Below are positions 39,687 to 63,939 of a DNA stretch of 64,000 nucleotides, one piece after another. The translations under genes and the position numbers were made by a program. The first letter of the stretch is position 1. Each line of letters starts with the position of its first letter. Source of the DNA: Trachythela sp. YZ-2020 (lineage: Eukaryota > Cnidaria > Anthozoa > Malacalcyonacea > Clavulariidae). The notes under the pieces were generated by a model that made no database searches, had not been told where the DNA came from, and worked only from the letters and a program-made list of their open reading frames with translations. The DNA lies in NCBI GenBank assembly GCA_016169945.1, contig JADLSH010000344.1, positions 930,001 through 994,000 of the forward strand, in the 5' to 3' direction.

Positions 39687-40752
39687 TTACTCTGGTTGTA
39701 ATATGGCACCGCTAGGGTCACCATTAGCTTTAGGAGGCTGAGGGAAAATACAAGGACACGACACTCTGCTCATATAGTACATCCATGATCCTTGGATGAA
39801 ATACCCACTGAAACCCTGACGATACCATCCACGCCAACCACTGGATACGCCTGGAACTGAAAATACAGTATTGATTAGCAATCTCATTCCCCGAGCCTAA
39901 ACATCAGATTCTTCCTCTTCTGTATAAATAATCCCTCCAAATTGCTTAGAATTTTTTTCCCAATTCATTGGAGTGCTCTAACAGAACAATAAGATACAAA
40001 GGCCTGGTTGCAAAAACCAATGGAAGCTCCATGGTTTTACCTTTTACATATTCTTAGTCTTAGAACAGCTCAAAATTGTTTTGATTGTTGAAGAGATGAC
40101 CGAAATGTAGCGTTGCAAAACAAAAACAAGTGTGGCAATAGCTGTAGATAGGTGAGCTATCATGGGGCCTATTGGAGTTGCTTTTAATGGAATGTAACTG
40201 ATACATTTTGATAAAAAAATTTAAACTATATAAATTTGTACAAAATATCTTCTTGTGGATTTTGCATAGCAGGTTGCCAGAATCTGTTTACTCAGTGGCC
40301 AGCTGAGGCAAGCTTGTGCACTTCTTATAAAGTTGTACATTGCTTATTCAGTGCAATATCTATCCATGCAATCCAGGTGCCTTAAATTAGCCCCAACATA
40401 ACATGCCTTTGGCAGAAAGCTACAATAGTTATGCATTTATATCTAGAACTTTTTATTTTCTACATGACAGTTGCTTTATTGTGTCCTTTCCCAATTTGCC
40501 CCTGCCGTCCCTGAGCTTGCTCCAGCGCCCCTAATTGAAATAGTGAAATACTTCACAAAAAAGGACAAATAAATGATCTAACTTACCATAACATATCTTT
40601 CTGAAGTGGTAGCAAAAATATGGTGGTGGTTTTGCCGAGCTAAAGGTCACAGGAAAATACATTCCTTTCTTTACCATGGTTTCCCTTGTATGATTGGATG
40701 ATATCATGTTTGCTTGAAGCAACAGCAGTAAGACGCACACAAAATATGTCAT
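39687..40752 (-). CDS. Secreted 111-residue protein with the shared GWY/CPC domain, copy 1
   Basis: Two minus-strand coding exons, 40752-40587 and 39856-39687, join in phase 1 (TAT G|TT). An upstream non-coding exon probably ends at 42802 (ggcg|gtaagt). The acceptor tttttatag lies directly against the ATG. Residues 1-14 (MTYFVCVLLLLLQA) are a signal peptide. The body holds GMYFPVTF, then WRGWYRQGFSGYF, WMYYMSR and CPC. It aligns by eye with the C-terminal part of the proteins at 49971-55358 and 57668-63939, with the intron in the same place and phase, but has no collagen part; its tail differs (PKANGDPSGAILQPE). I do not recognise the domain. Extracellular by signal peptide; function unknown. 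Confidence 0.75.
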
Positions 40753-41274
40753 CTATAAAAATGGAATTTTAAGAAATGATTCAAAATTTAAAAGACACTC
40801 AAATACTTCTGTACTTGGTTGAAGTGCATGACTGCCTGGAAAATATAGGAAAAAAGTTCGACCTTTCATCTTGAAGTTTTTTTCGATGTCCCCATTGTCT
40901 TTATATATATTGTTTTGAAAATCCCACTTTTCTCCATGCCATCCAGTCATTGTTCCTATTTATATTTATTAGCAAAGGCCTATTTGTTGCACAACCTATA
41001 ATGTGTTCACACATGTTCTCACTATTGCATGAACATTTTCAGCACTTGCTATAACCAGGCCAGTTTCTTTACAGACTACAGTAGACATGGTTGAACATGA
41101 AGCTTAATGCGAACTTGATTATTGATGGTTCACACCTTCCCCCCCCCGGCCCCCCCCCCCCACCTACATATATTCAGAAGTGTCCACCAATGGTTGAATT
41201 GCCATAAGAAATTGCATAATATAGAGTAGGCCATCAAAATTGCCTCTGCAAAAAACCACGGTCCCAAAATTATC

Positions 41275-41885
41275 TTTGTATATGTGTAATATTTGTATCA
41301 TGAGAAGAAATGTAATATATCTTTATAGTAAAAATCCTCATCTTGATCAACTTTTCACTGTCAAAGCTACCGGATATGATGTCATTGGGTGAATTGTAAA
41401 TTAGTTTTCCTTTGTTTTTTTGCTAAAATTCATCTAATGACATCATATCCGGAAACTTTGACAGTGAAAAAGTTGATCAAGATGAGGATTTTTACTATAT
41501 AGAGAATAATACATGGGTGGGTGCGCGTAAATACCAGATTTATTTCGAGTGTTGAACATGATATCTCACAAGTCAGCGCAGCGAACGAGTGAGATATCAT
41601 GTTCAACACGAGAAATAAATCTGGTATTTCCAAGCATCTATGTATTATTCTGTTTATTATATAAAGGACAGTCTTTTCAAACATAATAAAATAAACAAGA
41701 AAAGCAGCTTGGTGATTGGTTGAAAAGCGATAATTTTCACATGTGAAATTATCATAAATAATCTCACATGTGAGATTATCAGTTTTATCAGTGCTCGAAA
41801 TCTGTATAAAGCACTATGCTTTATATAATAAAAAGATATATTACATTTCTTCTCAGAATGATACAAATATTACATATATACAAAA
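41275..41885. mobile_element. ~610-bp inverted-repeat element with nested hairpins (duplicated at 45473-46072)
   Basis: The ends ttgtatatgtgtaatatttg and its inverted copy bound two inner palindromes: aaaatcctcatcttgatcaa / ttgatcaagatgaggatttt and gttgaacatgatatctcac / gtgagatatcatgttcaac. It lies in the 5' intron of the 111-residue gene. The copy-2 version has lost part of its right terminus. Confidence 0.8.
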
Positions 41886-42801
41886 ATATTTTTGGGGGTC
41901 AGTAGCACTTTAAGCACTTTGGCAATGGTTGTTGCTTGTTAAGTGTTGAGGCCACCTAGACGATTTCTGAGCACTTTTCTGTTAATTACCGTATACCCTA
42001 CAGCCAACTGGTAGTAATTAAATGGAAACCACAAATGTTAGGATGCACTACTCATCTTTCAACGTTGTAAGTGAGGAAAATATTCAAGAATTTTAAAGTA
42101 TGTAAAATCACGGTATGTACTTGAGGGTTTTTAGTTAAAGTATATAAAGTCACGGTAAACTGTTTTGATTTTCAAAAACGTGAGTTTCCAGCAACCTTCA
42201 GGTGAATAAATTCTGTAGTAACATTGAAATATTTGTTGCGCATAGGACGATAACACGCGCAAAGACAACTGCCAACGGCAACGTGCTAATTTCAGAAGGT
42301 GTTAAGACAAGCGCATTTTGCGATTGAGAAGAATTCTACTTGTGCACGACAGTCCAATAAACCCCAGTTTTCGCGGCTTAAAATGTTGGTGGTGTATGCA
42401 AAACATTAAAAGTTGTGTTTTGTTGTTGTGTTCAGGGTATTTTGAACTCTATTATTCTAATAACCGTCGTCCACGTCAGTTTGCGATGCTGCTTACGCCA
42501 ATAGCCCAATACATCGGAGTCTTATCATTTTGGGGACTAAAATCTATGTGAAAATAGCTGATATTGTGTTTTGAATACTGTTAACATCATATTCTTGAAG
42601 TTATACAATGAATATACACATGACAATGAATTCAAACACAAACTTAGTTACACTTGTTACTTCTTTTCTTGAGCCACCGGAGATCTCCGGCATAGAGTAC
42701 ATGGAATGCAGTCTGGGTCACTTTAAGAGCGAAACAAAAATAGGCGACTACGTTGTGATACATGTAGAATGAGTTTGAATGACAATGAAAGGCTGACTTA
42801 C

Positions 42802-42868
42802 CGCCCGTATTTTTAAGTTCAGCAGATCGAATGTAAAGGCGCGCAAATTTCGACGGTCAGAATATATA
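42802..42868 (-). promoter_or_regulatory. Possible TATA promoter and 5' non-coding exon, copy 1
   Basis: On the minus strand a TATATA at about 42868-42863 is followed by about 60 nt ending at a ggcg|gtaagt donor (exon end 42802). Copy 2 keeps the TATATA (about 47032-47027) and the donor (exon end 46966, with gtaagtaagt). Inferred from conservation only; the splice to the ATG exon is not proven. Confidence 0.35.
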
Positions 42869-43516
42869 CCTTCCCTACCTCTAGGGTATATACCTTCCCT
42901 ACCTCTAGGGTCACCCTCTCTTGTAAACAGAGTGCCCCCACCCTCAGGGTAACCCTACCAGCCGAGACGAGTTTAAATCTTTCCAGTTTCCATGTAAACA
43001 CTTGCGTTTCAGCTGTTATATTAATATGAATGTAATTTTTCCTCTCCCGCGGTAGCTCGGGGGGTAGGGACACCCTAGCACCCGAGATCATATAAACAGC
43101 ACCTTAGTACTTGTAATTCACAGGTGAAATGGTTTGTAATGTGAACTGTGAACTAGAAATAAAATCAATCATGTAAAAGGACTTTATATTTATTACATAC
43201 ATCTCTATAGTGTTTGTGGCAAATAGTTGACAAAAACTTTTTGTGAGGATCTATTGTAGGTACATAGGGTACATAGTCCTAGTATTCTACAAAGGCCTGC
43301 CATAAAAGCAATAGAACAGTAACAGCTGCTCAAAACCTTGAAGTATTTTTGATATTTTTCGGACACGTCTGACCAAAAACCATGGCAACCTTTTGTAAAA
43401 TAAACATCTCTTAATAATACACAAGTCTTATACAAAACAATAACATTTTTATACAGTTAAATTACAACGGTACTATGGTAAAATGGTCTTTCCAATTTAT
43501 AAGCAATCTTGAGATG

Positions 43517-44520
43517 TTACTCTGGTTGTAATATGGCACCGCTGGGGTCACCATTAGCTTTAGGAGGCTGAGGGAAAATACAAGGACACGAGACTCTGCT
43601 CATATAGTACATCCATGATCCTTGGATGAAATACCCACTGAAACCCTGACGATACCATCCACGCCAACCACTGGATACGCCTGGAACTGAAAATACAGTA
43701 TTGATTAGGAATCTCATTCCCCGAGCCTAAACATCAGATTCTGCCTCTTCTGTATAAATAATCCCTCCAAATTGCTTAGAATTTTTTTCCCAATTCATTG
43801 GAGTGCTCTAACAGAACAATAAGATACAAAGGCCTGGTTGCAAAAACCAATGGAAGCTCCATGGTTTTACCTTTTACATATTCTTAGTCTTAGAACAGCT
43901 CAAAATTGTTTTGATTGTTGAAGAGATGACCGAAATGTAGCGTTGCAAAACAAAAACAAGTGTGGCAATAGCTGTAGATAGGTGAGCTATCATGGGGCCT
44001 ATTGGAGTTGCTTTTAATGGAATGTAATTGATACATTTTGATAAAAAAAATTTAAACTATATTTGTACAAAATATATACTTGTGCACTTCTTATAAAGTT
44101 GTACATTGCTTATTCAGTGCAATATCTATCCATGCAATCCAGGTGCCTTAAATTAGCCCCAACATAACATGCCTTTGGCAGAAAGCTACAGTAGTTATGC
44201 ATTTATATCTAGAACTTTTTATTTTCTAAATGACAGTTGCTTTATTGTGCCCTTTCCAAATTAGCCCCTGCCTTCCCTGAGCCTTTCCTGGGGGGTTCCA
44301 GCGCCCCTAATTGAAATAATTCAAAAAATAGGACAAACAAATTATTTAACTTACCATAACATATCTTTCTGAAGTGGTAGCAAAAATATGGTGGTGGTTT
44401 TGCCGAGCTGAAGGTCACAGGAAAATACATTCCTTTCTTTACCATGGTTTCTCTTGTATGATTGGATGATATCATGTTTGCTTGAAGCAACAGCAGTAAG
44501 ACACACACAAAATATGTCAT
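43517..44520 (-). CDS. Secreted 111-residue protein with the shared GWY/CPC domain, copy 2
   Basis: Exons 44520-44355 and 43686-43517 mirror copy 1 in length, phase and splice sites. Base changes in the coding exons (for example cgacac to cgagac near 43590 and gctaaa to gctgaa near 44410) appear silent, and I read the same 111-residue product. Conserved protein with diverged intron lengths suggests both copies may be used, unless the duplication is an assembly artefact. Transcription runs leftward, as for the other three family members. Confidence 0.75.
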
Positions 44521-47035
44521 CTATAAAAATGGAATTTTAAGAAATGATTCAAAATTTAAAAGACACTCAAATACTTGTGTACTTGGTTGAAGTGCGTGAC
44601 TGCCTGAAAAATATAGGAAAAAAGTTCGACCTTTCATCTGGAAGTTTTTTTCGATGTCCCCATTGTCTTTGTATATATTGTTTTGAAAATCCCACTTTTC
44701 TCCATGCCATCCAGTGAGTCATTGTTCCTATTTATATTTATTAGCAAAAGCCTATTTGTTCCACAACCTATAATGTGTTCACACTTGTTCTCGCTATTGC
44801 ATCAGCACTTGCTATAACCAGACCAGTTTCTTTACAGACTACAGTGGACCTGGTTGAGCATGAAGCTTAATGCGAACTTGATTATTGATGGGTTCACCCC
44901 TCCCCCCACCTACATATTTTCAGAAGTGTCCACCAATGGTTGAATTGCCATAAGCAATTGCATAATATAGAGTAGGCCATCAAAATTGTTGCAAAGACTT
45001 CAAACGCTTGCCTCTGCAAAATTTCAGGAAATGTTGGAAGAAACAGATTCCAAAGAATAAGGTCATCTTGTAAAACAAGACAAGTTTTTGAAAGTGTGAA
45101 TTTTTGACTATTTCAAAGTCACCATCAGAGACAGATTTCTGGGGGGGGGCACTTCTTCCTCAAGCTATAGGGGGATGAGCCCCCTTCTTTTTTGCAAGAA
45201 TGCTTGAAAATATATAATTTTTTCATAGTTTTCATTCTCCAAGCATCACTATATGACTATTTTAGGCATGAATATTGTATAAAGATGCGGCCATGGGATT
45301 TGGTGGGTTACTTATGACGTCCTCCATTTCTGAATGTTTTCACCCTTGGTAACATGCTCGTCTAGAGAGCCCCCCTGGCCCCTACTCCCTAGTTATGAAT
45401 TTAGTTCTACAGCACTGCATTCTGGACTCTTTCGATATCATCACTTAAGTGCCACTGATCCCCCAAATTATCTTTGTATATGTGTAATATTTGTATCATT
45501 CTGAGAAGAAATGTAATATATCTTTCTAGTAAAAATCCTCATCTTGATCAACTTTTTCACTGTCAAAGTTACCGGATATGATGTCATTGGGTGAATTGTA
45601 AATTAGTTTTCCTTTGGTTTTTTTTGCTAAAATTCATCTAATGACATCATATCCGGTAGCTTTGACAGTGAAAAAGTTGATCAAGATGAGGATTTTTACT
45701 ATATAGAGAATAATATATTCATGGGTGCACGGAAATACCGGATTTATTTCGAGTGTTGAACATGATATCTCACGAGTGAGCGCAGCGAACGAGTGAGATA
45801 TCATGTTCAACACGAGAAATAAATCTGGTATTTCCAAGCATCTATGTATTATTCTGTTTATTATATAAAGGACAGTCTTTTCAAACATAATAAAATAAAC
45901 AAGAAAAGCAGCTTGGTGATTGGTTGAAAAGCGATAATTTTCACATGTGAAATTATCATAAATAATCTCACATGTGAGATTATCAGTTTTATCGGTGCTC
46001 GAAATCTGTATAAAGCACTATGCTTTATATAATAAAAAGATATATTACATTTCTTCTCAGAATGATACAAATGGGGGTCAGTAGCACTTTGGCAATGGTT
46101 GTTGCTTGTTAAGTGTTGAGGCCACCTAGACGATTTCTGAGCACTTTTCTGTTAATTACCGTATACCCTACAGCCAACTGGTAGTAATTAAATGGAAACC
46201 ACAAATGTTAGGACGCACTGCTTATCTTTCAACGTGGTAAGTGAGGAAAATTCAAGAATTTTAAAGTATGTAAAATCACGGTATATACTTGAGGGTTTTT
46301 AGTTAAAGTATATAAAGTCACGGTAAACTGTTTTGATTTTCAAAAACGCGAGTTTCCAGCAACCTTCAGGTGAATACATTCTGTAGTAACATTGAAAGAT
46401 TTGTTGCGCATAGGACGATAACACGCGCAAAGGCAACGGCCAACGTGCTAATTTCAGAAGGTGTTAAGACAAGCGCATTTGCGATTGAGAAGAATTCTAC
46501 ACGTGCACGACAGTCCAATAAACCCCAGTTATCGCGGCTTAAAATGTTGGTGGTGTATGCAAAACATTAAAAGTTGTGTTTTGTTGTTGTGTTCAGGGTA
46601 TTTTGAACTCTATTATTCTAATAACCGTCGTCCACGTCAGTTTGCCCTGCTGCTTACGCCAATAGCCCAATACATCGGAGTTTTATAATTTTGGGGACTA
46701 AAATCTGTGTGAAAATAGCTAAGATTGTGTTTTGAATACTGTTAACATCATATTCTTGAAGTTATACAATGAATATACACATGACAATGAACTCAGGCAC
46801 AAACTTAGTTACACTTGTTACTTCTTTTCTTGAGCCACCGGAGATCTCCGGCATAGAGTACATGGAATGCAGTCTGGGTCACTTGAAGAGCGAAACAAAA
46901 ATAGGCGACTACGTTGTGATACTGTAGAATGAGTCTGAATGACAATGAAAGGCTGACTTACTTACCGCCCGTATTTTTAAGTTCAGCAGATCGAATGTAA
47001 AGGCGCGCAAATTTCGACGGTCAGAATATATACCT

Positions 47036-49970
47036 TTAGTGTTCTTGCAGACAAAGAGGGATTTATATAAGATTATAGCATTCATAGGAAATAACGCTTG
47101 CATTCAGCGCAAGTAACCCAAGTTGTTTTCCCAATTTCCCCCAAAAATTCGCGTTTACGTATTATGTAAATGTGTTGTAAGTCTAAGTGTCTAACTTTAT
47201 AATGACAAAATTAATGCGTGTTCAATGTTAACCATCGACGAAAGAGCATATTGAACATTCATAAAACGTATCCCAAATATAGTCCAAAAACATTAGAAAC
47301 GCATGTATACAACGCGCAAGTGGGTACATGACTATCATGTGTTATGCTGCAAAACGACGATCCGAGTTGTGAATTGTGTTTGACAATAGCAATACGTTTA
47401 TTTTGTCGGCGTCGACTGAAACACCAGTTGCTGTTAGATCTGATGTTGCGCATATTACTATCAGCGAACGCGCATGTTGAATAATTCATAAAACCTATTC
47501 CAAAAACAGGTCGAAAATAAACGCATAAAAGATGCAAGTGGACGAATAACTATAATTTGATTCTACTATAGAACAATGACATCGACTTTGTGAATTGTGT
47601 TTGACAATTATCAATATGTTTATTTTGTTACCATTTGTCTCAAACACCAATTGCACTCGAATCAAGCTCTCGCCAATATGGCAATATTATGGCCCTAAAA
47701 CAAGGCGTTTTATAGTCTGTTCTGCATAAGTTTTAAACACATCATTTGTATACTTACTTTAGGACTTGTATTTTTCCAAAGCTATGTATCTTCGTCCTTG
47801 TATTGTGTTGTATAACAATTAACAAAGATAGATCAAAACAATGTCTCATTCACTCTGAAGTCTAAACTGACACAATTTTAGTAATGAAATCTCAAGAATG
47901 TGTAAGACGATATTTTGTCAACGGAAACTGTCAACGTTAATAAGGTAGTCCTCATTTGTCAGTTACGTAGTGCCTGGTAAACTATTAACTGGTTACAATG
48001 GGGAACATGTAAAGATCTAAAGCAAGTTTAGTTGCTACACCTTTGGTCTTGTAAAAAATTTACAGCGACGATTAGACTGGAATCGGTAATGAGAACTTAA
48101 TAAGTATACACACCCAGGGGTGCAAAACAAGTAGCATTTTTATTGGGTGATTTTCCAGTAAATGCGTATTCTATGTCATTATATAGCAGAATGGTCGTAT
48201 TTGTAGTTGATAATTAACCATGCCAATCGCAAGGTCTGCGCGCTCATGTACGTTTGGGTGAACTCGACAATTTTTCGTTCCCTGAACTTGAATTTTCCGT
48301 TCCATTCAAATGACTCCGTCACCGTAGCCATTTACTTGCGTAGATGCATTGGCAACACGTGGGGGTCGACCGCCCTACCCCCCCCCCCCTCATTATAGAA
48401 TCCCTTTGAGATAGCGGATTCAACTAACTAAATTGAATTGAAACACTGTTCCTTTCAACCGTAGAAGCTTGAAATCCTTGAGCATTGTGAGCAAATAAGC
48501 ATTAAATTTGAACCCAAAAGGTTTGAGGACTGAAATTTGCAGCAATAAAACCACTCACCTTTAGCTTATGGGGCTTCGGTGGCGCAGTCGTCAGAGCATG
48601 CGCCTTTCACCTCTGAGATCGTGGGTTCGATTCTCGCTGGTGGAGTTTATGTGAAAAGAGTTAGTCAACGCTCTACCGAAAGTCGTGAGTTTTCTCCGGG
48701 TATTCCGGTTTCCTCCCACATGGAATGTTGACAGGGTGGGTTTGGATAATCCCCAAACTAGGTTCGATTCCCACTGCGGTCAAGCAATTTTCAGCTTGCG
48801 CGGTGTGGAGCCCTCCGAGTAGCGTCATCTCACCCGAGGGGAAAATCGCTGATTTCAATCTCGTACACCTTCAGAAAAATCACAAAAAAATCAGCAAAAA
48901 AATCACAAAAAAATCAGCAAAAAAATCAGCAAAAAATAGACAAATCACAAAAATATATAAAATTTCCCCCTCGATCTCACCTAGACGGACATATTTTTAA
49001 CCAATATTTTCCCACGTTGCACCCGACTATGGTTGCTGTGGTTGCACCAAGGTCGCCGTGGGTGATTATGAGTATTTAGTCAGTGGGTCGGTCGACCGGT
49101 AAGTCGGTCAATCAGCCTGTCAGTCACTAAGACATAGGATCACTTCGGATAGAAAGTTATAAAATTTGTGCTAATCATCCTTACTTGCAGCCTAGAGCTG
49201 AGCTGAATTACGAAGGACGCAGCTCGACTTGATCGAGTCGAAGGCTTATTAAAGGCGCCTCTGGCTGCCGTCGTTTGACTTATGTCTGATCATGCGGGAG
49301 CCCAGCTATGATCGAAGGGTTACGACCTTTTGTTTGATAATCGAATGAGTAATGCTCTACCTACTGAGCTACGATATCGAAGGAACCGAGGGGCAAATCA
49401 GATTTAAATCTCGTACACCTTCCGAAAAATCACAAAAAAATCAGAAAAAAAAAACAGGAAAAAAATCACAAAAAAATAGACAAATCACAAAATATAGAAA
49501 AATGTCAAAAAAAAATCGGTGGGGGGATCACAAAAAAATCACATAATTTTTTAATCTCGTACACTTTTTAGGAGTGATTTGCCCCTCGGAAGGAACCAGA
49601 CTCGGTTCCGACTTGACCTCGATTATTTTCAGCTGTACGGTCTGGAGTAGCCTAAGTGAGGGTATACACCGTAAGCTAGGTCTGGAGCCACTCGGAGTGA
49701 AGTCGTCTAATATAATTCCCCGAGTTATAATCCTCACCATCATTAGACATATACGTATATCCCTTTATACAATAAACCCACACTAGACGTTTTTTTACTT
49801 TAATATTAAAATTACATTACACGTGTATTTACTCTTTAAATAATAACGCACACATCTAAACGCAAGATTCAAGCACTAAACAAAACAAACATTTAGCATA
49901 CTATTCCAGCAAATTTCGACACAACCTAATACACGCAAGTTTTACGATATTGTTTTACTGTATTTCTTTT
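47036..49970. other. Intergenic between family members: degenerate duplication, SINE, A-rich tracts
   Basis: 47225-47440 and 47455-47680 share ttcataaaac, aagtgg, gtgaattgtgtttgacaat and tgtttattttgt in order, an old tandem duplication. 48850-48965 and 49400-49552 each carry aatctcgtacacctt followed by repeated gaaaaatcacaaaaaaatca; the second sits inside an inverted pair (aggggcaaatcagattt / agtgatttgcccct). No gene seen. Confidence 0.55.
48570..48845 (+). repeat. tRNA-derived SINE (family B), copy 1
   Basis: The tRNA-like head reads ggggcttcggtggcgcagtc, then cctttcacctctgag, then the B box gtgggttcgattctcgctgg. After it come gtcaacgctctaccgaaagt, cgtgagttttctccgggtat and ccggtttcctcccacatgga. 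The same order occurs at 51776 and 53367. Partial minus-strand pieces of the ccggtttcctc core lie at about 78-115 and 2686-2710. Confidence 0.8.
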
Positions 49971-52900
49971 TTATAGCAATCGCAATAGTTCTGCAGGGCT
50001 TGGTGTGGGACCGGGAGGGATTGGGACCGAGCATGGACATTGGAATCTCGAGGAGAAGTAAAGCCATTTGTCGAAGGTGAGATAACTGGATTTACCGGTT
50101 TCATACCAGCCAAGCCAGTCATGTGGTACGCCAGGGACTGTAAGAAAACAAAATCACGGTCGAGACTTCAACGCGCGAAATCACGCTTCAAAACGCTTTG
50201 AAACGCTTCAAAATCACGCGAAAATAAATATAATTGTGTTGTGTTGTTTGTGAACTACGTGTGTATATTCAGCAAAGTTTTCCAAGCGTAAACTCGGGTC
50301 TTCATCATATTATTTGCACTGATTGATTGAAATACTCACGTACGTACGTATGTAATAACCCAAGGGTGTATTTGCAATACTTACCATAAGCTTGTTTACT
50401 GATATGTTGACACATTGTTCTGGGTACTTTACCATGGAATGAGACCGGTATAAACATGGTATCAGGAACAGTGGGAGGATATCGGGGTAATGGAGGTGCT
50501 GGGACACCAGGTGTCCCGGGTGTCCCTCGTTCACCCTCATCACCCTTCAGTCCCCAGGGTCCAGGATAGCCCGGTGCGCCGACAGGTCCTGCTATACCAG
50601 GGTCTCCAAGTTCGCCTGAAATTGAAACAAAGAGAGGTCTCGGTTTAAGCTGGTTTTACACGATCAATCTTGCTGAGTTTCTGTGATCAAACTATGCTTT
50701 GATCTAAGTATGCTATGATGAAAATGTAACTGACACTGTAAACCCACTGATCTGAAACTAGAACTGGATAGAGCATCCTATTGAATTCAATGAGCCAATT
50801 TTGAAGCCAGAATATTTTTAATGAGATCAGATTTTTAAAGCTGTCAAATTCTTGACTAGTCAAATCGTTAGCTCTTTAAATTAGTTATGTTATGAAGCAA
50901 ATATATTTTTCTATGCAACGTGAAAAATATAGCTTCCAACATATCTTCTAATGAGTTTTAGAACGTTTTAAACACCACATGAGGCTTATGGCGGCCACAT
51001 CGGTGTGCCCTCATTAGTTATTCACCGGCACATTTAGGAAGAAAGAGAGGCCACTGATGACAAATTCTTATCGAGACAATATTTTTCCTTTCCCACCAAT
51101 AACTAGAACATGTTAGAACCTCTTTAAACATGTCCCCAACACCACAGTAGATTTGTTGTGGTCACCGATGTGGCCGCCATTGGCTTCATTTATGCATGGA
51201 GATGCACTATCCAGTCCTTGTTTTCAGATCAGTGTGTAAACCTCTCACGAAGACCAGTGTTTTCAATAAAAGGCGGTTACAGGCGGGTTTACCGCCGCCT
51301 ATTAGGCCTTTCACGGCCTCTTATGCAAAATCTATATTTGTCTTTCATCTGGAAATATTGAGCACAGACGCCTAGTTTTGAAATGCAGGGCCTGATATTA
51401 CAATAATTATTGAAAACACTGGAAGACACAATTTTACTTTAAAATTGTTTCTCTCAAAGCTCATTATAGATAAATAGAACTTATTTAAACACGCTGGCTG
51501 CTCAATATATAACTTTTTCCAAGACACGCCGCGTGTGATAAGATATATAGATTGTGCACACCAATAGTTCAACGATAATGTTGCATTTGGACGATGAATG
51601 TCAACATAGTGAATATAAAGATCAATCTTTACATCAATCATTATGTCATTTAACTTTGATGGGCAATGATTTCTCTTTTGAATAAAATAATAACTGGTTA
51701 GTTTTCTCTGGACATGATTTCGTAGGGTAAAGAGTTCCATATATCGGCCACATTATACAATACATGGGGCTTCGGTGGCGCAGTCGTCAAAGCAAGCCCT
51801 TTCACCTCTGAGTTGTGGGTTCGATTCTCGCTGGGAACTCTACTAAAAGAGCAAGTCAGCGCTCTACCGAAAGTCGTGCATGGGTTTCTCCGGGCACTCC
51901 GGTTTCCTCCCACAGGGAAAGCTGACTGGATGGGTTAGGATATACAGATTAGGAAAGTAATATCACAATTGTTGTAAAAATAGATAATGTAGGCTAAGTA
52001 CGAAATAAACAAACAAACAAACAAACAAACAAACAAACAAACAAACAAACAAACAAGCAAGCAAAGAAGCAAGCAAGCAATCAGGCGGGCGGGCGGACGG
52101 ACGGACGGACGGACAAAGCAGACAATCAAAGCTTATTTGTCACAGGAAGTAAATCATAATACCTTGGATTCCACTTGGACCTGGTGGACAGCGACATTCT
52201 TGACCAAAAGGGGGTCTGTCAAACGAAGACGCTGCCTCACCCTTTATGCCTTTCGGTCCATGATATCCCGGTATTCCTGGATCACCCGGGTCACCCACAA
52301 CACCTTGTGCACCGAGGGGACATTCCGGTCCAATTGCACCACCCGCGCCAGGAGGGTTCCTAAACACCGCTGAACATCCTGTGATAAACATCAGAAAAAG
52401 TACCTGGGAAAAAACGTGAAATATATTTAAGTGATTGTTTGGCTTTTTTTTATTTCCTATCTCAATAGACACTTCCCGAATTTGCTGGCTGACAATGAAA
52501 ACTGCTTATTTAACAATGGATTCCATTGTTCGCCTCGATTTCAAGCTATTGTTTCGTGTGCACTCAAGCAAATTCGGGAAGTGTCTATTGCAAATACTTG
52601 TGTGTAAATGATTAACATGCGTTCTTAACTTGTGGAGTCCAAATGTACACACGTAAAAACTCTCACATTTTGTCAACATGATATGCACCCAACAGACTCA
52701 GGGCCTGTTTATATGATCCTGGCTAGGCGAGACGGGACAGTTGCCGAGATCCCGCTTGTAATATAAACTCTATTGAGTGTTTATATGATCCCGCTTCTAT
52801 CCCGCCTAGACGGGATCCCGGCGTCTGTTGCCGGGATCCCGCCTAGCTGGGACGAAAATTCCCATATAAACACTCTATGAACTTTTCTTCTGAGCACGCG

Positions 52901-55358
52901 TAAACCCCTTTTCTGCAAGGAAATATGACGTCGAGAACCTAACTGGCTTCATCCCGGCAATGTATTTTGTCCATATAAACACGCCATCCCGCCTAGGCGA
53001 GTTTCCCGGTAAGACGGGATGAAAACTCTCTCCTCCGCAGAGGCTATTTATTTAATTTTTTTATTCAGCGGTTTCCTCATTATATTACCATTTAGCGCGT
53101 TTTATTATTACCATCTAGCGCATTATTTGACTTATTATCCAATATTAGCGTATCCTTTTATAATTTTTTTTATCCAAGCCTCTGCGAAAGAGAGAGGGAT
53201 GAAAACGTCCCGTCCCGCCTAGACGGGATCATATAAACAGGCCCTAATTGTAGAAAGCTTGTTTATCAAGATGCTACAAGGTTGTCACAACTTGTTGACA
53301 AGTTGTTGAATTGAAGGACGATAACAAGTTGTTGGAACAACTTGTAACAAGTTCTACTTGTAACAAGGGGCTTCGGTGGCGCAGTCGTCAGAGCAAGCGC
53401 CTTTCACCTCTGAGTCTTGAGTTCGATTCTCGTTGAGGACACTCATCACACTCATGTGAAAAGAGTAAGTCAACGCTCTGCCGAAAGTCGTGGGTTTTCT
53501 CCGGGCACTCCGGTTTCCTCCCACAGGGAAAGTTGACTGGGTGGGTTAGGATAGACAGATTAGGAAAGTAATATCACAATTGTAAAAATAAATAATGTAG
53601 GTTAAGTACACAATATAGGTAAGCTAGATACTTGATGTAATCGGTCACTGAAAAGCCCCAATGGGAAGTGAGGTGAATAATGTATGTATGTATGTATGTA
53701 TGTATGTATGTATGTATGTATGTATGTATGTATGTATGTATGTATGTATGTATGTATGTATGTATGTATGTATGTATGTATGTATGTATGTATGTATGTA
53801 TGTATGTATGTATGTATGTATGTATGTATGTATGTATGTATGTATGTATGTATGTATGTATGTATGTATGTATGTATGTATGTATGTATGTATGTATGTA
53901 TGTATGTATGTATGTATGTATGTATGTATGTATGTATGTATGTATGTATGTATGTATGTATGTATGTATGTATGTATGTATGTATGTATGTATGTATGTA
54001 TGTATGTATGTATGTATGTATGTATGTATGTATGTATGTATGTATGTATGTATGTATGTATGTATGTATGTATGTATGTATGTATGTATGTATGTATGTA
54101 TGTATGTATGTATGTATGTATGTATGTATGTATGTATGTATGTATGCATGCATGCATGCATGCATGCGTATGTATGTATGTTGAGTCAACAAGCAATGCA
54201 AGCGGCAATGCGAACACATCCTGATAACAAGTTTTTGAGACAGCAACCATTGGTACAAGTCTGCTGCAGGTTTGTTACTACTTTACAACTTGTGCGTTTT
54301 TACGTGTATAGTCGAAATACTTGCAGAAAATATATTTCTGAATTGCCCAACCGGCCGGGGATCGAACGCAAGGTCTCATTATATGTATACACCCAACGTG
54401 GGATATTCAACCACATATACGCATATACGAGCGTTCTTAACAAAGTGATTAATAGACTTTCTCAAAGTCCTTCGTCTTTAGAATCGTCTGTATGCCCGAT
54501 TTTTCTCTCGTTTGCTCTCGACTAGCAGAGGTCGACTTGGAGCAAGTCTACAAAGTGATAAAAAGCTCATACTTGTGAATTTTCACATACTTTAGTGTGA
54601 AGTACTCACTTTTAACGTTGACGGATAGCTATATAGCTATATAGGAATTTACTGAAAACAGTGACTGCTCTGAAACGTACATTGACTATGCGCAAATTTA
54701 GTATTATAATTGCATAAAGTATTCTTTGTCCATATTTATCGCTTACTTTATATAGAGTAAATACACACATTTCGTCGGCAATTACAGGTGTTTATTGTCA
54801 AACAATGTAATGTTACGAGAACATGAGCCCAAACCACAAACAAGTGCTGGCCGCTACAACCTTACAACGATGGGATCAATTGAAGTTAACGACCCCCCCC
54901 ACCCCAAGGGAGTCGTATACTTCAATGGCCATTGACATGATACAAAATAGCGCATTATGGCAAAATATTGCTATACTCATTTTTATACCGCGTTGGAATG
55001 CTTAATACTATGCGCGCAATACTTTTATATCTGCTGATTGTTCTAAAACGTTTTGTGTTAAAAACCTAACACTAGGCTACATTGTCAAGGTTAACCTAAG
55101 CGGGGTTTCAACTTGCATATTCACCGGTCTATATAAAATGCTCTTGCTTGCTCGGAATTTCGCTCGGAATTTCACTGTTGAAAATATGCTATCGAACCGC
55201 GAATGCTCTCAACTTCACCGTGTATAGACTCACGCAGTAAATGCGAACATATTAAGGAAATCTAGTCTATATAGTTTCATACAGTTTCATTGTTTATATA
55301 ATCAACATGGTTCCGTGAGAATCACGTATGGAGAAAAATAACATACCTTATAGAGCAT
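49971..55358 (-). CDS. Secreted short-chain collagen-like protein with the GWY/CPC domain (216 residues)
   Basis: Four minus-strand exons: 55358-55347 (MLYK), 52403-52163, 50615-50385, 50137-49971; phases 0, 1, 1; GT/AG throughout. Residues 1-17 are a signal peptide. Two Gly-X-Y stretches follow (about 32-57 and 80-125), separated by a linker with QECRCPPG. Then comes the shared domain: TMFIPVSFHGKVPRTMC, AYVPGVPHDWLGWYETGKS, KWLYFSSRF, CPC and a PPGPTPSP tail. Cysteines in the linker and domain could cross-link chains. By its collagen repeats it should trimerise outside the cell. It is not a classical minicollagen: the C-x3-C-x3-C-x3-C-x3-CC domain is absent. The 4-codon first exon, 2.9 kb upstream, is chosen on frame, donor and completion of a signal peptide, so it is less certain. 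Confidence 0.8.
51690..51760 (-). pseudogene. Tiny relic of a LINE ORF2 tail
   Basis: The minus strand reads NVADIWNSLPYEIMSREN, the common closing motif (W-NSLP-E-I) of non-LTR retrotransposon ORF2, followed after a frame change by YYFIQKRN. It adjoins the SINE at 51776, whose 3' end could derive from a partner LINE. Very short, so weak. Confidence 0.35.
51776..52060 (+). repeat. tRNA-derived SINE (family B), copy 2, with (CAAA)n tail
   Basis: Head ggggcttcggtggcgcagtc, shared body gtcagcgctctaccgaaagt and ggtttcctcccacagggaaa, then gattaggaaagtaatatcac and a caaacaaacaaac tail, followed by ggcgggcggacggacggac simple sequence to about 52115. In intron 2 of the 216-residue gene, opposite orientation. 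Confidence 0.85.
52464..52591. mobile_element. 128-bp MITE
   Basis: atagacacttcccgaatttg at the left is mirrored by caaattcgggaagtgtctat at the right, with a central ggattccattgttcg. It lies 60 bp upstream of exon 52403-52163. Confidence 0.8.
52700..53245. mobile_element. 546-bp element with AGGGCCTGTTTATATGATCC ends, nested
   Basis: agggcctgtttatatgatcc at the left and the inverted ggatcatataaacaggccct at the right are near-perfect. The interior repeats gcctagacgggatcccg and tcccgcctaggcgag, plus a second atataaacactctat pair. No ORF of note. It is inserted in the CAAGTTGT element. Confidence 0.85.
53367..53680 (+). repeat. tRNA-derived SINE (family B), copy 3, nested
   Basis: This is the fullest copy: the head at 53367-53435 has ggcgcagtcgtcagagcaag and B box ttgagttcgattctcgttg, then acactcatcacactcatgtg, gtcaacgctctgccgaaagt, the ccggtttcctcccacag core and gattaggaaagtaatatcac. 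Its 3' end runs into the TATG array. Confidence 0.85.
53681..54180 (+). repeat. (TATG)n microsatellite, ~115 perfect units, with CATG variants at one end
   Basis: An uninterrupted tatg run from 53681 to about 54145, then catgcatgcatg to 54167 and two more tatg units. It follows the SINE 3' end and probably grew from its tail. It is open in all frames on both strands (Met-Tyr-Val-Cys or His-Thr-Tyr-Ile), which is not coding. Confidence 0.97.
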
Positions 55359-56276: not shown

Positions 56277-56970
56277 GGCTGTTTTCCACTTCAACTGTGT
56301 ATCGTAGCGTATTTCTTTGTTTCCTGAGCACTCGGGTAGAACCAGTGAACTGGATGTTCTAAGTAAACTGGAACGCTAACTCCTATGATCAAGTCCCATG
56401 ATTCGTTGAAGCCAAGCTAGTTTTTCTGAGGTTTGAGTTGAAATACTTAACGCCGAACATTGGGCTGTATATGAAATTGAAGCTATTAAAAAGTTCTATT
56501 TGATATAAAAATTATATTTTTATTTTTTTTATTATTTATTTTTTAATAGCGTAAGTAGTATATTTCCCCTTTTAAAAACGGGTTAAAAGTTTTTTTTCAA
56601 TTTCACACATTTTGTCTGCGCAAGAAATTTTGTCTGTTGAAACAATATGGCCGCCAACGTTCGGTTTCCGACTAATTCCGATTTAATAATAAATGAAAAA
56701 CTAAAAACTTTTTTTAATTGGCCTTAACCTAAAGTCTTGAAGTTTTTATATCAAATAGAACTTTTTAATAACTTCAATTTCATTTACAGCCCAATGTTCG
56801 GCGTTAAGTATTTCAACTCAAACCTCAAAAAAACTGAATTAAGCTGGCTTCAATTTCCCCCCCTGCGTTAGCGTTCCAGTCTATTATAGTTCACTGGGTA
56901 GAACTAATGACTTTGACACAAAAGAAAATGTTGCGTTACGATACGATGCGTTTGAAGTGGAAAACGGCCT
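56277..56970. mobile_element. ~690-bp inverted-repeat element
   Basis: aggctgttttccacttcaa at the left pairs with ttgaagtggaaaacggcct at the right. Inner arms cgaacattgggctgtatatg / cagcccaatgttcggcgtta and gttctatttgatataaaaa / atatcaaatagaacttttta form a long central hairpin. Confidence 0.8.
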
Positions 56971-57024
56971 TTTTTTCGTTACATTACAATATATTTAAAA
57001 GAACATCACGTAAAAGTGCATCCT

Positions 57025-57505
57025 TAAAGGGATGTGGCAATAAAAATTTAGTTTATCTCATTTGATAGAACTTTTAAAATTATATATAAAATCTCCCTTA
57101 CCGATTTTTCGTATATTGCTTAGTTCTTGAGATATTTTAACTGAAAACAATGAGCTGTCCTCCATCACGGTGGTTTAGTGACGTCACAAGCAGGATTTGC
57201 ACAATTAGTAGATGTTTAAAAAGTTGTTAGTCAATTTGTTATTTGAAATAGTGACCGAAGTATAATTTTGGGCTCATAATGACCATTGGCTTTCTGGGTA
57301 TAATACTTGCGTTACCCTGCTTGTGACGTAACATGCATATCCACAAAAATCCAAGATGGCGGACAGCTCGCTGATTTCTGATTATTTCTGTCAAAATATC
57401 TCAAGAACTAAGAAAGATATGAAAAATCGGTAAGGGAGATTTTCATATAATTTTAAAAGTTCTTTCAAATGAAACAAACTAAATTTTTATTGCCATATCC
57501 CTTTA
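57025..57505. mobile_element. ~480-bp MITE ending 160 bp from the last exon of the 218-residue gene
   Basis: taaagggatgtggcaataaa at the left pairs with attgccatatccctttaa at the right. The arms continue with aaaatctcccttaccgattt / aaatcggtaagggagatttt and gttcttgagatattttaac / aaatatctcaagaac. Confidence 0.8.
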
Positions 57506-57667
57506 ACTCATTCTATTAATTATAATAAGAAGTGCAGCATTAACCTGTTCATGTTTAGTTACATAAAAATATTATAAAAATCAACTTGAGGAAGATACTC
57601 TACTCTAAAGTCTATGATAATGTTAGGAGAATCAACTAAAGTCGATTCTAAACGTGATCTTATTTTC

Positions 57668-60600
57668 TTATTTCAGACGGCGCATCAGTTCTTCAGGACT
57701 CGGGGTTGGCCCAGGGGGAAGATGTACGCTACATGGACATATGAAACGTGATGCGTAGTATAACCATTTGTTATAGGTGAGGTAACCAGACTTGCCTGGT
57801 TCATACCATCCAACGAATTTGTTGGGGACCACTGGAACTGCAAGGAACAAGAATGTTTACAGTAAGTTAAAAACAATAGACAAAAGCGGCTATCAGTACA
57901 GGGTGTAAATCTAAATTTTGAAAAGACTACTAGAGTAAAATGGTCATTATTATATTCATTTTAAAGCGTAGCCATTCAGCTTTCTAACGGTGGGTTTCGT
58001 TTCAAATTTGAACGATTGGTTTGCGAATAATAATATTTTAAGTGACTGTGATTGGAGAATATAAAATTTGAGATGTAATAATAATTAATACTAATATCTT
58101 TTTATCAACAAAGCTATAAAATTGCATAATTATGCGGCATCTAAAACTGATAGGTTCTACAAAATGTTTTCGTGTTCAGTTATTTGAACTAAGGACACCA
58201 ATGACGACTTGTTCGAACAGGCTTTAAAATAAGACCTCGTTATATGGTCCAGTATTCCGAAAATTATTAAGTATAAAAGATGGACTCCGTTTTTTTATAC
58301 ACCTTGTAACTTCATTGATCTGAGCATTAGAATTATCTACAAGAGTGAATAGCTCTTATACATAATTCTAATGCTTGGTTACCTTTGTTTTATTCTATGT
58401 TTTCGCAAACTAAAACAATAGTAACTAGGCATGTGAGTTATCCGAAGTTGTGAAATGGGTAGCAACGATGTAAACAGCGTTAGTTAAATTTGTCTATTCT
58501 ATAGATTTATTCGCGAATTGAGTTTTGTACTTGGGTTTCAATAGTGAGCTGTCATTTGCGTTCTATATAAGGGTTACTCTACCGAGTCTATTTTTCAGAT
58601 CAGAGACACTAACCGTAGGCATGTCTTCTCAAATGATGACACATCACTCTCGGCATCTTGCCTGTGATGACGACGGGAACATACAGGGTATCTGGGGTTT
58701 CAGGGGGTTGTTTAGATACACGTGAGGATGGTGCTCCTGGTGTACCTGGAACACCTTGAGGTCCTCTATCCCCTATTTCTCCTGCTAGTCCCGGGTATCC
58801 CGGCATACCAACGTCACCTAGAAACATGAATTTGAATGTTAGTCAGAACGCGGTGATTCGTGATTTCTAGAAATAACATCTTTAAAAACGATGAACCTAT
58901 TTATCAGGCAATATCCTCTTTGAGTGTTTTAGATGATTTTAAATTTCATTGTCTCAAGCGAAAAAAAACGTTCAAAACTGCATGTAAAATAACTTCTACA
59001 CTTCGTTGTTGAAATATTCTATTTTAGTTGTTTAAAAAGGCATAAATAATAAATTTCGCATCATGTCACCTATAATATTCGGTGCGTTTGATACTGTAGG
59101 ATAGGGATGCGTTCGATTAAGATTCCTATCATGAATAAAATAGAAAATGACCAACCTTTGGGTCCAGGCACCCCCTCAATTCCTTTCTCTCCTTTGCGGC
59201 CTTCAGGACAATAACATGGTGTACCAGTGGGTGGTCTGAATTTCGAAAACGTACCATCCCCCTGGTCGCCTTTTTCACCCGGGAGCCCCTGCATACCCAT
59301 TTGCCCTGGCCATCCTTGTGGTCCGGGGTGACCTGGGAGGCAGTCTGATATTGGGCCAATATGTGTGTCAGCAATCACGTGTTGTACTACAACGAGACAG
59401 CTCAATGCCAGAATTCCAATAATCTAATGCAAAATAAAACGGAGAAATTTAGGAGTTATATATAATACTGTAAATCCTCTGCTAACCCCCCTCCCCTCCC
59501 CCCCCCCCCGAGGCTTATCTATTTCAGGGTAAATATTCTATAACACACACCGGTATTATCCCAGTACTGACAGTACATGTTCACGAACGTGTGGTTAGCT
59601 CTTGACAACTGGACTCTGTAGCTCAGTGGTCAGAGCGCCGCACCTGAATTGCAGGTCCGCAGATTCGATTCCTACACACGCAAAAATCTCACATCTTGTA
59701 ACAAGTCTGCCAACAAGCCGTCAACAAGTTGTCACCGCACTGCTTGTCCCAAGTTGTCAACAAGTATGGAACAACTTGTTAACAAATTGTGACAAGCTTG
59801 ATGGCATTATCAGACTTGTTACAAGGTTGTTCCAACAAGTCCGTTACATGCTTGATATAACAATGTTGTTACAACCTTGAGTTGTCAAACTTGTAACATT
59901 CTTGTTGTATCATGGCTGTGACAGACCTGTTAGAACAACCTTGTAACAGGTCTGATAATGCCATCAAGCTTGTTACAAGTTGTTAACAGCTTGTTCCAAA
60001 CTTGTTACAACAACTGGGAACAAGCAGTGCGAAGACAACTTGTTGACAGCTTGTGAACAGATTTGTAACAACTTGTTTGCAGACTTGTGTCAATTTGTGC
60101 GTTTTTACGTGTGTACCCAAGGGCCTATGGTTGCAATTTTCGCAACTGGTCCAGGTTAGGTCGAAAATATGTACATAATTTTCGCTCGAAATGTCGATCT
60201 ATAAAAAGCCTTGTTTATTTCAATGCACGTTTTAGAAGGCAGAATGAAAGGATTACTGAATGGTTTTCCGTGCAGGATCGTGTGATCCTAACACGCGGGA
60301 TGTCGCGAGACTTTCTGAAAGCATAAAGCGACAAAGAAACAACGGACATTTTAAGAACTCCGCGAAGCGCCTAACATTTTCCGTGCATGATTGTCTCATC
60401 CTGCACGGGTATTGACCAATCACAGCTCGCGTAGTAAACATGTTATTTTAGATTAATGCTTATTGAAGACGGGCGTTAACAGATAGGAAGTAAGAAGCGC
60501 CATCCACCTGCCATCCAACATGGCGGCCAAAATACAAGAAAAGATGTGTTTTCTAACAAATGTTTATATTCTGTTTACTATGATACTAGACATGGTTTTT

Positions 60601-63600
60601 AAAAGCTAAATTGAGTTTTCACGTTAGATTTGGAAAAAACGTAGTTTTTAACGGCATTAGAAAATATTGCTGACGTCAGCAATGCAAATTATTCAAACCT
60701 TTTTAACTCGCGAGAGAATAATTGTATCGACTTGAAATTTGTTATGAATACTTGTTATGATATACAAAATATGTTTAACAGACAGCTTGATAGGTTGCAC
60801 GTTGAAGATTTTCGAATTTGGTCACGTGATGGTGCAAAAACTCTACAAGGTGTCTTCAAAGGAGACCTTTAGAAATTAAAATATCCGGCTTTGTTTGATG
60901 CACGTAATTTATTACTATGCTGAACCCACGGGCACAGAATAAAGATGTATACAGAAGGGCCACTCAGCGGTGCAACGTGTCCTCGTTTTTTTATGCAAAA
61001 ATATGCAGTTTACTGGCCAGAGAAATGGCGGATCAGCCAGTTCGGCGTGCTTATTGGCCAGAAATGGCAATTGACTGGCCAGAGAAATGGCGGCCAACAT
61101 GCGTAATGCGATATGCGCGACCCCAAAATATTCAAAGGTTCCCAAGAGAATGAACCCTCTATATAATAGTTACTCTATGCCACGGGTGCGTAAAACAGAA
61201 TAGACTCTTTCGATAATTACGTCATTTGGCCTGGGAGCCTCACTCCCACGAAGAGTGGGCCAATCACGTTTCGTCTTGATGCACGAAAGCGAGGTTCCCA
61301 GGCCAAATAGGCGGATGTGACGTAATTATCGAAAGAGTGTATTGAATGGACTTTTAAGGTCAGTTCACACGGGCGATTTTTGCTGCGATTTCTAGTGCGA
61401 TTTTCCTCTTTTCATGGATGTGAACGAGTGGATTAGTTAACAATTAGACAACGAGGCCGAATTGTCTATGAGCGAATAGTCAACGAGGCGAAGCCGAGTT
61501 GACTATTCGCTCATAGACAATGAGGGCCATGAGGCCGAGTTGTCTAATTGTTTTAGTATAAACTATAACATTAATTTACACGTCTTGCTGGTTTGCAAAC
61601 CAATCTGAAATTTATATCCTATTAAGGAAGCAAATAGGTCAGTTTTTGTTTGCCTTAAATTGTGTTAAAATTCAACTTTAATTTTAAAATTTCATTGAGT
61701 GTATGTTGTTTTATCTATTTTCTTACCCTTAAAAATTGCCATTGCATATTTTGTTGCCGTTCTGGTTTTTTTTTCTGGTACGAAATAGTCCAAAAAGTCG
61801 TCCAAAAACATCATTAAACACTTCGGCAAAACGCGAATTTTCCGCCATTTTGAATTTTCCTACTAGTGGTCTATCACCAATAGACCATTAGTAGCTCAGC
61901 CAATCACAACGTTGAATTTGTAATAGACTACTAGTAAGTTTATACTAATTATGAATATTATGAGTATATGTACCATCATCTGACCATTCTAACTCATCCA
62001 CTCGTTCGCATCCATCAGAAGAAGAAAATCGCAGCAAAAATCGCCCGTGTGAACTGGCCTTTATGCATACCGAAGTTATTTAAAAGCGTACTTTGAGTCT
62101 GGGCACAGTATAGAGACGACCAGTAGGGCCACTCGTTTGTTTTTTTCTGGCCAATAAGCAAGCTGGACTAACTTTCCTGGCCAGTAAACTGCATATTTTT
62201 GCATAAAAAGCCGGCTACATGTTGCATCGCCGAGTGGCCCTACTGGTCGTCTTTATACTGTGGTCTGGGTCTAATTGTAAAACAGTACAAACTCGTTGCT
62301 CTGTGGTCAGTTGAACCATTTTTTCTCGAGCTGACGGTGTCACTGATTAGTAATTTGACCATTTTTGTGTAGTCACTCTCCTTTTATAATATTAGAAGCT
62401 ATTTTAAATTCCCAGGAGTAGAAAATATTGTACTTAACAAGATAGACTTATTACGCTTCCGTGGGCTCAGCATAATGCATTTTGCTCAGGCATTCAAATT
62501 ATTACAATAGGAAAATTTCAAAAGGTATACTTTTTTTTGAGACACCCTGTGGTACTCAGGCATTTAAATTATAACAATATAAAGGTGAATTTCTAAAGGT
62601 CTCCCTTTTTTTGAGACACCCTGTACAGGGTGTATCAAAAAACTGCAACCCTTTGAAATCAGATATTTTTAGAATTTGCATGACTCAGCACGTACTAATT
62701 GATCCCAAGGGTGCGTAAACACAATATATAGCTATACTGTAGAAAGGAATTTCATGCTTGGGGATGTACACAGTATAGCTATATATTGTGTTTACGCACC
62801 CTTGGGATCAATTAGTGCAGAATCATGCAAATTCTAAAAAATCTGATTTCAAAGGGTTGCAGTTTTTTTGATACACCCTGTATAGTGAACGCCAATAAAT
62901 ATATCGAATCAGTACACAAGTTGTACGTACTTACGGTACTTTTGGAATAGACAATTTCCAAGGAGTATTTAGAGAGTTTTCATTCAAGAAAGGATAAGAC
63001 AACGAACTTCTAAAAATTGAATACTTCTAAAAGTTTCCCCAAGAAGACAACCCCTGATAGGAAAACTGTTGAAACTTCGTGAAATTATGCCAACAAGCAA
63101 AATTTGATGCTGTAGGTTTTACTATTATTTGGAAAATACCAAGTAGTTTCAAGGGCTTTTCAAGTGCCGTTGAACGTCAGAATTTCATTCAAGTAGTATT
63201 CTATGTTTAAGGACTTCAAAGAGTAGCATGAACCATGTTATAAGAGGGGGAACTTATTTAACAGGAGAGGGTGGGAGGGGGGGCTAATAGATTTAAGGTA
63301 CACACTGAGTAATTAACCGTGTTTGAGATGTCTTAAAACTACAGTAAACGACTTCGAGTGTATATAATTATTTATATATATTTAATATTCTCTATTTAAT
63401 TTCTCATGCATTTATATAATAATCAAAGAGAAATGTGGGAATATTACAACAGGTTAACACTAATTACTACGGAATCTTTATTCGTTGCTTTAGATTACCC
63501 ACATGCCAAAGCATGTAAAACAATAAATAATGTACGTATACGACCAATACGAGAAAATTAGTGGCTGTATAAAGTCTGCATAAGTTTTGTAATTGATCAT

Positions 63601-63939
63601 TCTATTCACTGGTTGACACATCTCAGACATGTATATATCAAATTGGGTCAAATATTTACGACAGCCGCTATAAACTTGAACTTTTTTGACCTTCTAGATT
63701 CTAGAAGAAACATGTCTTAAATTAAAAATTCGCATTACTGTGGAAAATCACATTTGCGCAGACCACGTAGACAATGCGTTTCATGTGCGCTAAACTCAAT
63801 ATAAAATGCGCTGGTAAATCAGACTGGAATTTGTCTAGTATACAGCAAGCATTGTCGCTTGTCACCTTGTAAATTCTTACATGAATATCGTCCTTTAAAA
63901 ACCAATATTTTTATACAAACTTACCTGGCCTTTCCCCAT
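57668..63939 (-). CDS. Secreted short-chain collagen-like protein with the GWY/CPC domain (218 residues)
   Basis: Four minus-strand exons: 63939-63925 (MGKGQ), 59423-59156, 58817-58614, 57837-57668; phases 0, 1, 1, identical to the 216-residue paralogue. Exon 1 plus IIGILALSCLVVVQHVIA makes a signal peptide. A first Gly-X-Y run is at about residues 40-62 (GHPGPQGWPG onward), a linker holds GTPCYCPEG, and a second run covers about 83-124. The shared domain reads TLYVPVVITGKMPRVMC, then FVGWYEPGKSGYLTYNKW, LYYASRF, CPC and PPGPTPSPEEL. Domain architecture and intron positions match the 216-residue gene, so the two are tandem duplicates. Extracellular trimer expected from the collagen repeats. 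Exon 1 lies 4.5 kb upstream and is inferred from frame and donor. The sequence past 63939 would be its 5' UTR. Confidence 0.8.
59614..60210 (+). repeat. tRNA-derived SINE (family A) interrupted by CAAGTTGT element copy 5
   Basis: The head at 59614-59672 reads actctgtagctcagtggtca (A box), gcgccgcacctgaattgcag and B-box-like cagattcgattcc. At 59673 it breaks into tacacacgcaaaaatctcac, a CAAGTTGT array ending at 60115 with gcgtttttacgtgtgtac, and SINE sequence resumes (aagggcctatggttgcaatt, then cgcaactgg). It lies in intron 1 of the 218-residue gene. Confidence 0.75.
60909..62477. mobile_element. ~1.57-kb composite of nested inverted repeats
   Basis: The outer arms pair tatgctgaacccacgggcac (left) with ccgtgggctcagcata (right), and caaaaatatgcagtttactgg with ccagtaaactgcatattttt. 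Inside are a hairpin at 61199-61345 (actctttcgataattacgtc / gacgtaattatcgaaagagt) and a separate element at 61355-62062 (ggtcagttcacacgggcgat / atcgcccgtgtgaactggcc) that itself holds an acaattagacaacgaggc palindrome. No coding capacity. Confidence 0.7.
62626..62880. mobile_element. Mariner-like MITE with TA duplication
   Basis: TA on both sides flanks cagggtgtatcaaaaaactg and the inverted cagtttttttgatacaccctg. The arms extend through caaccctttgaaatcagat and a central tatagctata hairpin. Just upstream, 62490-62623 is a direct duplication of about 75 bp ending tttttttgagacaccctg, the end of a related element. Confidence 0.85.
62881..63924. other. Intron 1 end of the 218-residue gene, nothing further recognised
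   Basis: AT-rich sequence. A short taaacgacttcgagtgtat at 63342-63360 also occurs at 1494-1513. No second gene seen. Confidence 0.45.

Follow-up and report, generated by a model that had tools for sequence, protein, structure and literature searches.

Animal collagens are classified largely by their non-collagenous domains, and we know of few such domains that initiate a triple helix. Among the closest described systems, the spongin short-chain collagens occur in several invertebrate phyla by the accounts in PMC5395295 and PMC12549020. The NC1 domain that they carry is described as stemming from collagen IV, with which it has seven cysteines in common (PMC5395295), and in Nematostella four spongin-like proteins are reported along with further "collagen-like" ones (PMC12549020). 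Cthrc1 ends in a domain of 130 to 150 residues that its description calls an orphan, without BLAST homology to other proteins. According to the same source, HHpred gave nothing significant for this domain alone, and HHpred with the full-length protein, together with ab initio models, led to a C1q-like fold (PMC7058181). Here, we analyze a stretch of 64,000 nucleotides (the window) from the cnidarian Trachythela sp. YZ-2020 (NCBI GenBank assembly GCA_016169945.1, contig JADLSH010000344.1, positions 930,001 to 994,000 of the forward strand). On its minus strand lie four neighboring genes, which we name A, B, C, and D by rising coordinate, and all four have in common a C-terminal domain of ~70 residues. 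We put at about an even chance the reading that this is a tandem family with one shared domain lacking a credible match in the libraries, in which C and D are secreted as short collagens whose three-chain helix is likely nucleated by the domain and whose chains are likely cross-linked by cysteines.

A C-terminal domain common to four neighboring genes

The original prediction, which was made from the sequence letters without database searches, had placed four minus-strand genes with a common domain in this region, and both a profile search and pairwise comparisons with shuffled sequences bear this out. The profile was made from the domains of A, C, and D (B was omitted from the alignment, being identical to A) and run over the six frames of the window. 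It recovered eight exon pieces, all of them from the four loci, with E-values of 2.4e-27 to 1.3e-25 for the C-terminal half and 2.2e-11 to 3.1e-10 for the N-terminal half. No fifth locus was found in the six frames, where the next-best piece had an E-value of 0.17. Because the profile was made from the same sequences, we take independent support from the pairwise scores. Whole domains score 176 for A against C (z 25.5) and 161 for A against D (z 22.8), with shuffle means of ~29 (2000 shuffles). The N-terminal halves stand above their shuffles at z 6.9 (A/C), 8.7 (A/D), and 15.5 (C/D), the C-terminal halves at z 22.2, 18.2, and 38.9, respectively, and in each of these six tests 0 of 5000 shuffles reached the real score. 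Chance resemblance of the four domains is ruled out by the shuffles, along with the common intron and the codon evolution described below.

The aligned domains of A, C, and D have 26 invariant columns out of 89, which include P-V, K, P, C, H, the joint Y-V-P, V, G-W-Y, G, S, Y, W, Y, S-R, and C-P-C. The order of motifs that had been proposed is common to all four genes; the part that did not stand is the first Trp of W-x-GWY, two residues ahead of GWY, which is present in A, B, and C and replaced by Phe in D. There are three cysteines in the domain of C and D and four in that of A. A phase-1 intron interrupts the domain at one shared Tyr/Val site in 4/4 genes, as had also been claimed; it has GT...AG borders and splits the codon of the Val that follows the joint Tyr.

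The original prediction recognized no named family in the domain, and the libraries that we searched agree. Pfam yielded no family for the domains of A, C, and D (B, the same as A, was left out) at E-values up to 10, and none was found for the whole of protein A, which B also encodes. Searches of NCBIfam, PHROGs, and the PDB returned nothing credible or above chance. Their weak matches, each from one of the three domains or from the profile only, were taken as chance: in the PDB profiles an AMP-dependent synthetase (E 0.27) and a C-type lectin (E 5.3), in NCBIfam aminotransferases (E 0.071 and 0.17), and in PHROGs number 32365 (E 2.7). The linker of D gave a sub-threshold Pfam match to EGF_Tme5 (E 0.13). 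Text searches of the literature with six domain motif strings found no match, and among the matches listed by literature searches no paper was attributable to the domain, as judged by titles and the starts of abstracts.

One relative was found outside the window. There was none in viral contigs or in bacterial and archaeal contigs (28 pattern matches in each, 0 confirmed), collections that may omit the window's own genome, and none in phage records, which were queried with the last exon of D only. A search of 5.8 billion proteins, limited to those of ~48 to 152 residues with exact words in common, had two candidates and reported one of them, P0002 (109 residues, E 8.8e-10, 94% identity over 36% of the query). 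Because of that size limit, full-length collagen relatives could not appear, and we do not judge rarity from this search. P0002 begins in an apparent intron and continues through an exon that holds 10 triplets, followed by the linker and by the domain's N-terminal half, and it stops right after the point that matches the end of exon 3 of D. Compared with that exon, it keeps 10/10 glycines, 10/20 X and Y residues, and 35/38 residues of the linker and domain, from which it follows that conservation is tighter in the linker and domain half than in the helix. Two of its ten triplets are GPP. As a separate sequence, P0002 indicates that the collagen-plus-domain exon recurs outside the window, and it may come from another species or from another gene copy.

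Gene structure, selection, and surroundings

Two members have two Gly-X-Y runs joined by a Cys-x-Cys linker, as expected from the original prediction. These are C and D, in which a first run (COL1), a 17-residue linker, and a second run (COL2) follow one another, and it is these runs that place them among the collagens (Pfam Collagen, E 4.6e-13 for C and 1.4e-13 for D). COL1 has nine triplets in C and eight in D, plus a GDG that can be counted as a ninth, and COL2 has 15 in each. Transcription on the minus strand would run through D first, then C (52403-49971), B (44520-43517), and A (40752-39687). In C, exon 2 (52163-52403) encodes a hydrophobic stretch, a Cys, COL1, the Cys-x-Cys linker, and the start of COL2; exon 3 (50385-50615) encodes 13 of the 15 COL2 triplets, a linker, and the N-terminal half of the domain; and exon 4 (49971-50137) encodes the C-terminal half, a PPGPTPSP tail, and the stop. 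The same plan is found in exon 2 (59156-59423), exon 3 (58614-58817, with 10 of the 15 COL2 triplets), and exon 4 (57668-57837, with domain half, tail, and stop) of D, which runs from 59423 to 57668 or, if a tentative exon 1 is included, from 63939. This exon (63925-63939, minus strand) would encode MGKGQ ahead of the donor CAG/GTAAGT, and a five-codon first exon with its boundary at 63939 is plausible. For C there are several candidate first exons, none of them settled. Two long imperfect palindromes lie within the presumed first intron of D, at 59696-60071 (378 aligned bases, 82%) and 62621-62885 (281 aligned bases, 85%); both are likely hairpin-type mobile elements.

The alignment of C and D starts with the first residue of exon 2 and runs ungapped through to the end of exon 4, with 100 of 212 residues identical (exons 2 to 4 encode 212 residues in C and 213 in D). 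Each has seven cysteines across these exons, none in a six-cysteine cluster, and six are common to both, at positions 28, 70, 72, 149, 191, and 193. The intron within COL2 splits a Gly codon in C and D alike at positions 27 nt apart, and exons 2 and 3 total 472 nt in both genes. The intron may have slid by three triplets, or matching changes may have occurred; under both readings the length of the helix was kept. The sequences mark C and D as old copies: pS is 0.74 and pN 0.34 over 182 codons, with synonymous sites near saturation, and in the 80 codons of domain and tail pN is 0.24 and synonymous sites are saturated.

The other two members, A and B, lack collagen, which was likewise foreseen, and encode identical proteins of 111 residues that, past the hydrophobic start, consist mostly of the domain. 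An exon with the hydrophobic N-terminus and the N-terminal half of the domain (40587-40752 in A, where it ends in the phase-1 donor at Tyr/Val, and 44355-44520 in B) is followed by the last exon (39687-39856 in A and 43517-43686 in B), which carries the C-terminal half (VPGV...GWY...CPC) and the tail to the stop. In both genes an acceptor-like AG lies directly 5' of the ATG, so that an upstream exon is possible. A and B are carried on a tandem duplication (39231-42872 and 43045-47036; three main pieces with 91 to 96% identity), and they are a recent duplicate pair.

Over 111 codons, A and B show five differences, all of them synonymous, and 0 amino-acid changes (dS 0.076, dN 0), and their introns differ at 24 of 658 aligned bases (3.6%). 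That all five coding changes should be synonymous by chance has a p of 0.0004; at the intron rate, ~9.6 amino-acid changes would be expected, and none is seen (p 7e-5), which rules out A and B as pseudogenes. Gene conversion is an unlikely cause of their identity because divergence at synonymous sites (5/69, 7.2%) is no lower than that of the intron. With synonymous-only coding change despite intron divergence, both genes look functional, and the codon comparisons show selection against amino-acid change in the family. Exon borders in all four genes have AG acceptors and GT donors, and it is the codon-evolution figures for A/B and C/D that make the exon models credible without transcripts. Near the start of A (and so of B), C, and D there is an 11-residue hydrophobic stretch with a mean Kyte-Doolittle value of 2.2 to 2.9; for C, with its several candidate first exons, this is the stretch that opens exon 2. 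We read these stretches as signal peptides, and such N-termini make it likely that the products of all four genes are secreted.

Other features of the window include, on the plus strand, exons of an aconitase-type gene at 17412-29197 (Pfam Aconitase in three open reading frames [ORFs] and Aconitase_C in one), which is likely a cytosolic aconitase/iron regulatory protein 1. An ORF at 35109-35651 (plus strand) resembles Ly-6/uPAR (E 4.4e-5, 24.3 bits against a Pfam cut-off of 24.8), and its product, which has a hydrophobic C-terminus, is perhaps glycosylphosphatidylinositol anchored. At 37515-38806 (plus strand) are ORFs that look WD-repeat-like by reading; the first has no Pfam match and the second a weak one to the EML propeller (E 7e-4, far below the cut-off). 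Taken with the collagen and the long introns, these aconitase, Ly-6-like, and weakly propeller-like exons are what one would look for in animal DNA. An ATGT array at 53680-54181 (125 copies, 98% matches) is open in several frames, and further arrays have the unit GTCAG (27710-28234) or a 15-base unit (24133-24364). A dispersed repeat in three copies (48570-48748, 51762-52007, and 53363-53615; ~84 to 85% identity, partly open) is likely a mobile element.

Proposed assembly and its alternatives

With a hydrophobic start, a Cys, a short helix, a Cys-x-Cys hinge, a 15-triplet helix, and a compact C-terminal domain, the plan of C and D fits that of a secreted short-chain collagen, and the products of all four genes likely serve as secreted subunits of the animal's extracellular matrix. 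Judging by the collagen repeats, their chains would form trimers. Many collagens start folding from a C-terminal nucleus. We assign the role of nucleating the triple helix to the domain because it is C-terminal and because helices of 8 to 9 and 15 triplets are short to hold alone. Disulfides within or between chains likely form through the Cys ahead of COL1, the Cys-x-Cys between the helices, and the CPC in the domain. A and B could be caps, partners, or assembly regulators of C and D, and our most economical guess is a cap or partner role. One deletion that begins where the signal peptide ends and takes out everything through COL2 would make an A/B-like gene from a C/D-like one, and the change may have run in either direction. 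A role in matrix, cuticle, or capsule is a fair guess.

Several observations weigh against this proposal. C and D have 0 GPP triplets, and proline occupies the Y position in 6 of 15 COL2 triplets, which makes the stability of their helices doubtful. The outside relative P0002 shows only the N-terminal half of the domain, and an AlphaFold2 model of the exon-4 half by itself, made from four aligned rows, showed no readable fold (mean pLDDT 52.3, pTM 0.24). Finally, because A and B have the domain but no collagen, it must have some function other than helix nucleation. With such stand-alone copies in the same cluster, a helix-independent role of the domain is directly testable.

That the domain occurs without collagen is also what one would expect if it served chiefly as a head that binds sugar, matrix, or microbes and is borne by a short stalk of collagen, comparable to collectins and ficolins, with multivalency provided by the helix and with A and B as soluble forms. 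Conservation of the linker and domain half above that of the collagen X and Y positions is in keeping with such a head, and the invariant Trp and Tyr could line a binding face. Yet the absence of a Pfam match for the domain means none to lectin, C1q, or fibrinogen-like families, the C-type lectin in the PDB search (E 5.3) is at chance level, and the retained length and layout of C and D speak rather for a structural part than for a diversifying receptor. We see this explanation as possible but somewhat improbable. It is unlikely that the proteins form a capsule, cuticle, or skeleton component of one secretory cell type, convergent with minicollagens and having as its main job the disulfide polymerization of very short collagens; the 15-triplet COL2, the proline-rich stretches, and the cysteines between and beside the helices would suit that task, but the terminal cysteine-rich domains of the minicollagen type are lacking. 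A much diverged spongin short-chain collagen, with the domain as a shrunken half-module of collagen IV NC1, is very unlikely: the general layout is alike, with a signal, a short helix, and a C-terminal domain that bears cysteines, and the source describes split glycine codons in collagen IV genes and ctenophore genes with NC1 but no collagen, but the lack of any Pfam family at E up to 10 leaves no match to collagen IV C4, the PDB profile search found no collagen IV chain, and the domain has ~70 residues and three (C, D) or four (A) cysteines, as opposed to ~230 residues and seven cysteines common to spongin and collagen IV NC1 (PMC5395295).

Comparison with known short collagens

If C and D are indeed short collagens that assemble from their own C-terminal domain, the family would work like the spongin short-chain collagens, Cthrc1, and the minicollagens, while membership in none of these groups is shown. 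Spongins are described with a signal, a short collagen part, and a cysteine-bearing C-terminal domain (PMC5395295, PMC12549020), as in C and D. The family domain is far shorter, with fewer cysteines, and the domains of A, C, and D gave no match to C4/NC1 in Pfam at E up to 10 and none among the two PDB profile matches. Nor did Pfam, at the same threshold and at the level of sequence only, point to a head of the C1q/TNF, COLFI, or lectin-headed collagen families.

The minicollagens of nematocysts are described with ~15 Gly-X-Y repeats and proline-rich flanks (PMC12549020). COL2 of C and D has 15 triplets, with flanks that are only partly proline-rich. C and D differ, however, in being without terminal cysteine-rich domains, in having a larger C-terminal domain with a Cys and CPC, and in having an extra first helix. 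The claim that the domain is not the minicollagen cysteine domain held up, since cysteine number and spacing differ from the minicollagen pattern. The "collagen-like" sequences of Nematostella without further domain motifs, compared by description only, have short triple-helical stretches as in C and D (PMC12549020).

The closest in plan is Cthrc1, which is described as secreted, with a short collagen repeat and an orphan C-terminal domain; a conserved intron in the 5' part of that domain and close-lying paralogs in cnidarians add to the likeness (PMC7058181). In contrast, its domain has 130 to 150 residues (PMC7058181) compared with ~70 here, and the family has two helices with a Cys-x-Cys linker. 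The searches do not assign the family to Cthrc1 either: for the ~70-residue domain, Pfam, which probably holds a Cthrc1 C-terminal model, gave no match at E-values up to 10, and NCBIfam gave only chance-level matches. By analogy with the proposal for Cthrc1, a C1q-like fold could apply to the family domain too, in which case its novelty would be lower.

We tentatively raise, as a possibility that we would not yet favor, that the family represents a new class of animal short-chain collagen. Such a class would be defined by a C-terminal domain for assembly that is particular to it (with Cys, GWY, W-x-Y-x2-SR, and CPC), unrelated to the NC1, C1q, COLFI, Cthrc1, and minicollagen domains, and collagen-less proteins from neighboring genes would cap or tune its assembly. 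If this is true, a compact domain of ~70 residues would be able to drive helices of as few as 15 triplets, which would make it both a marker for matrix evolution and a new, minimal tool among collagens.

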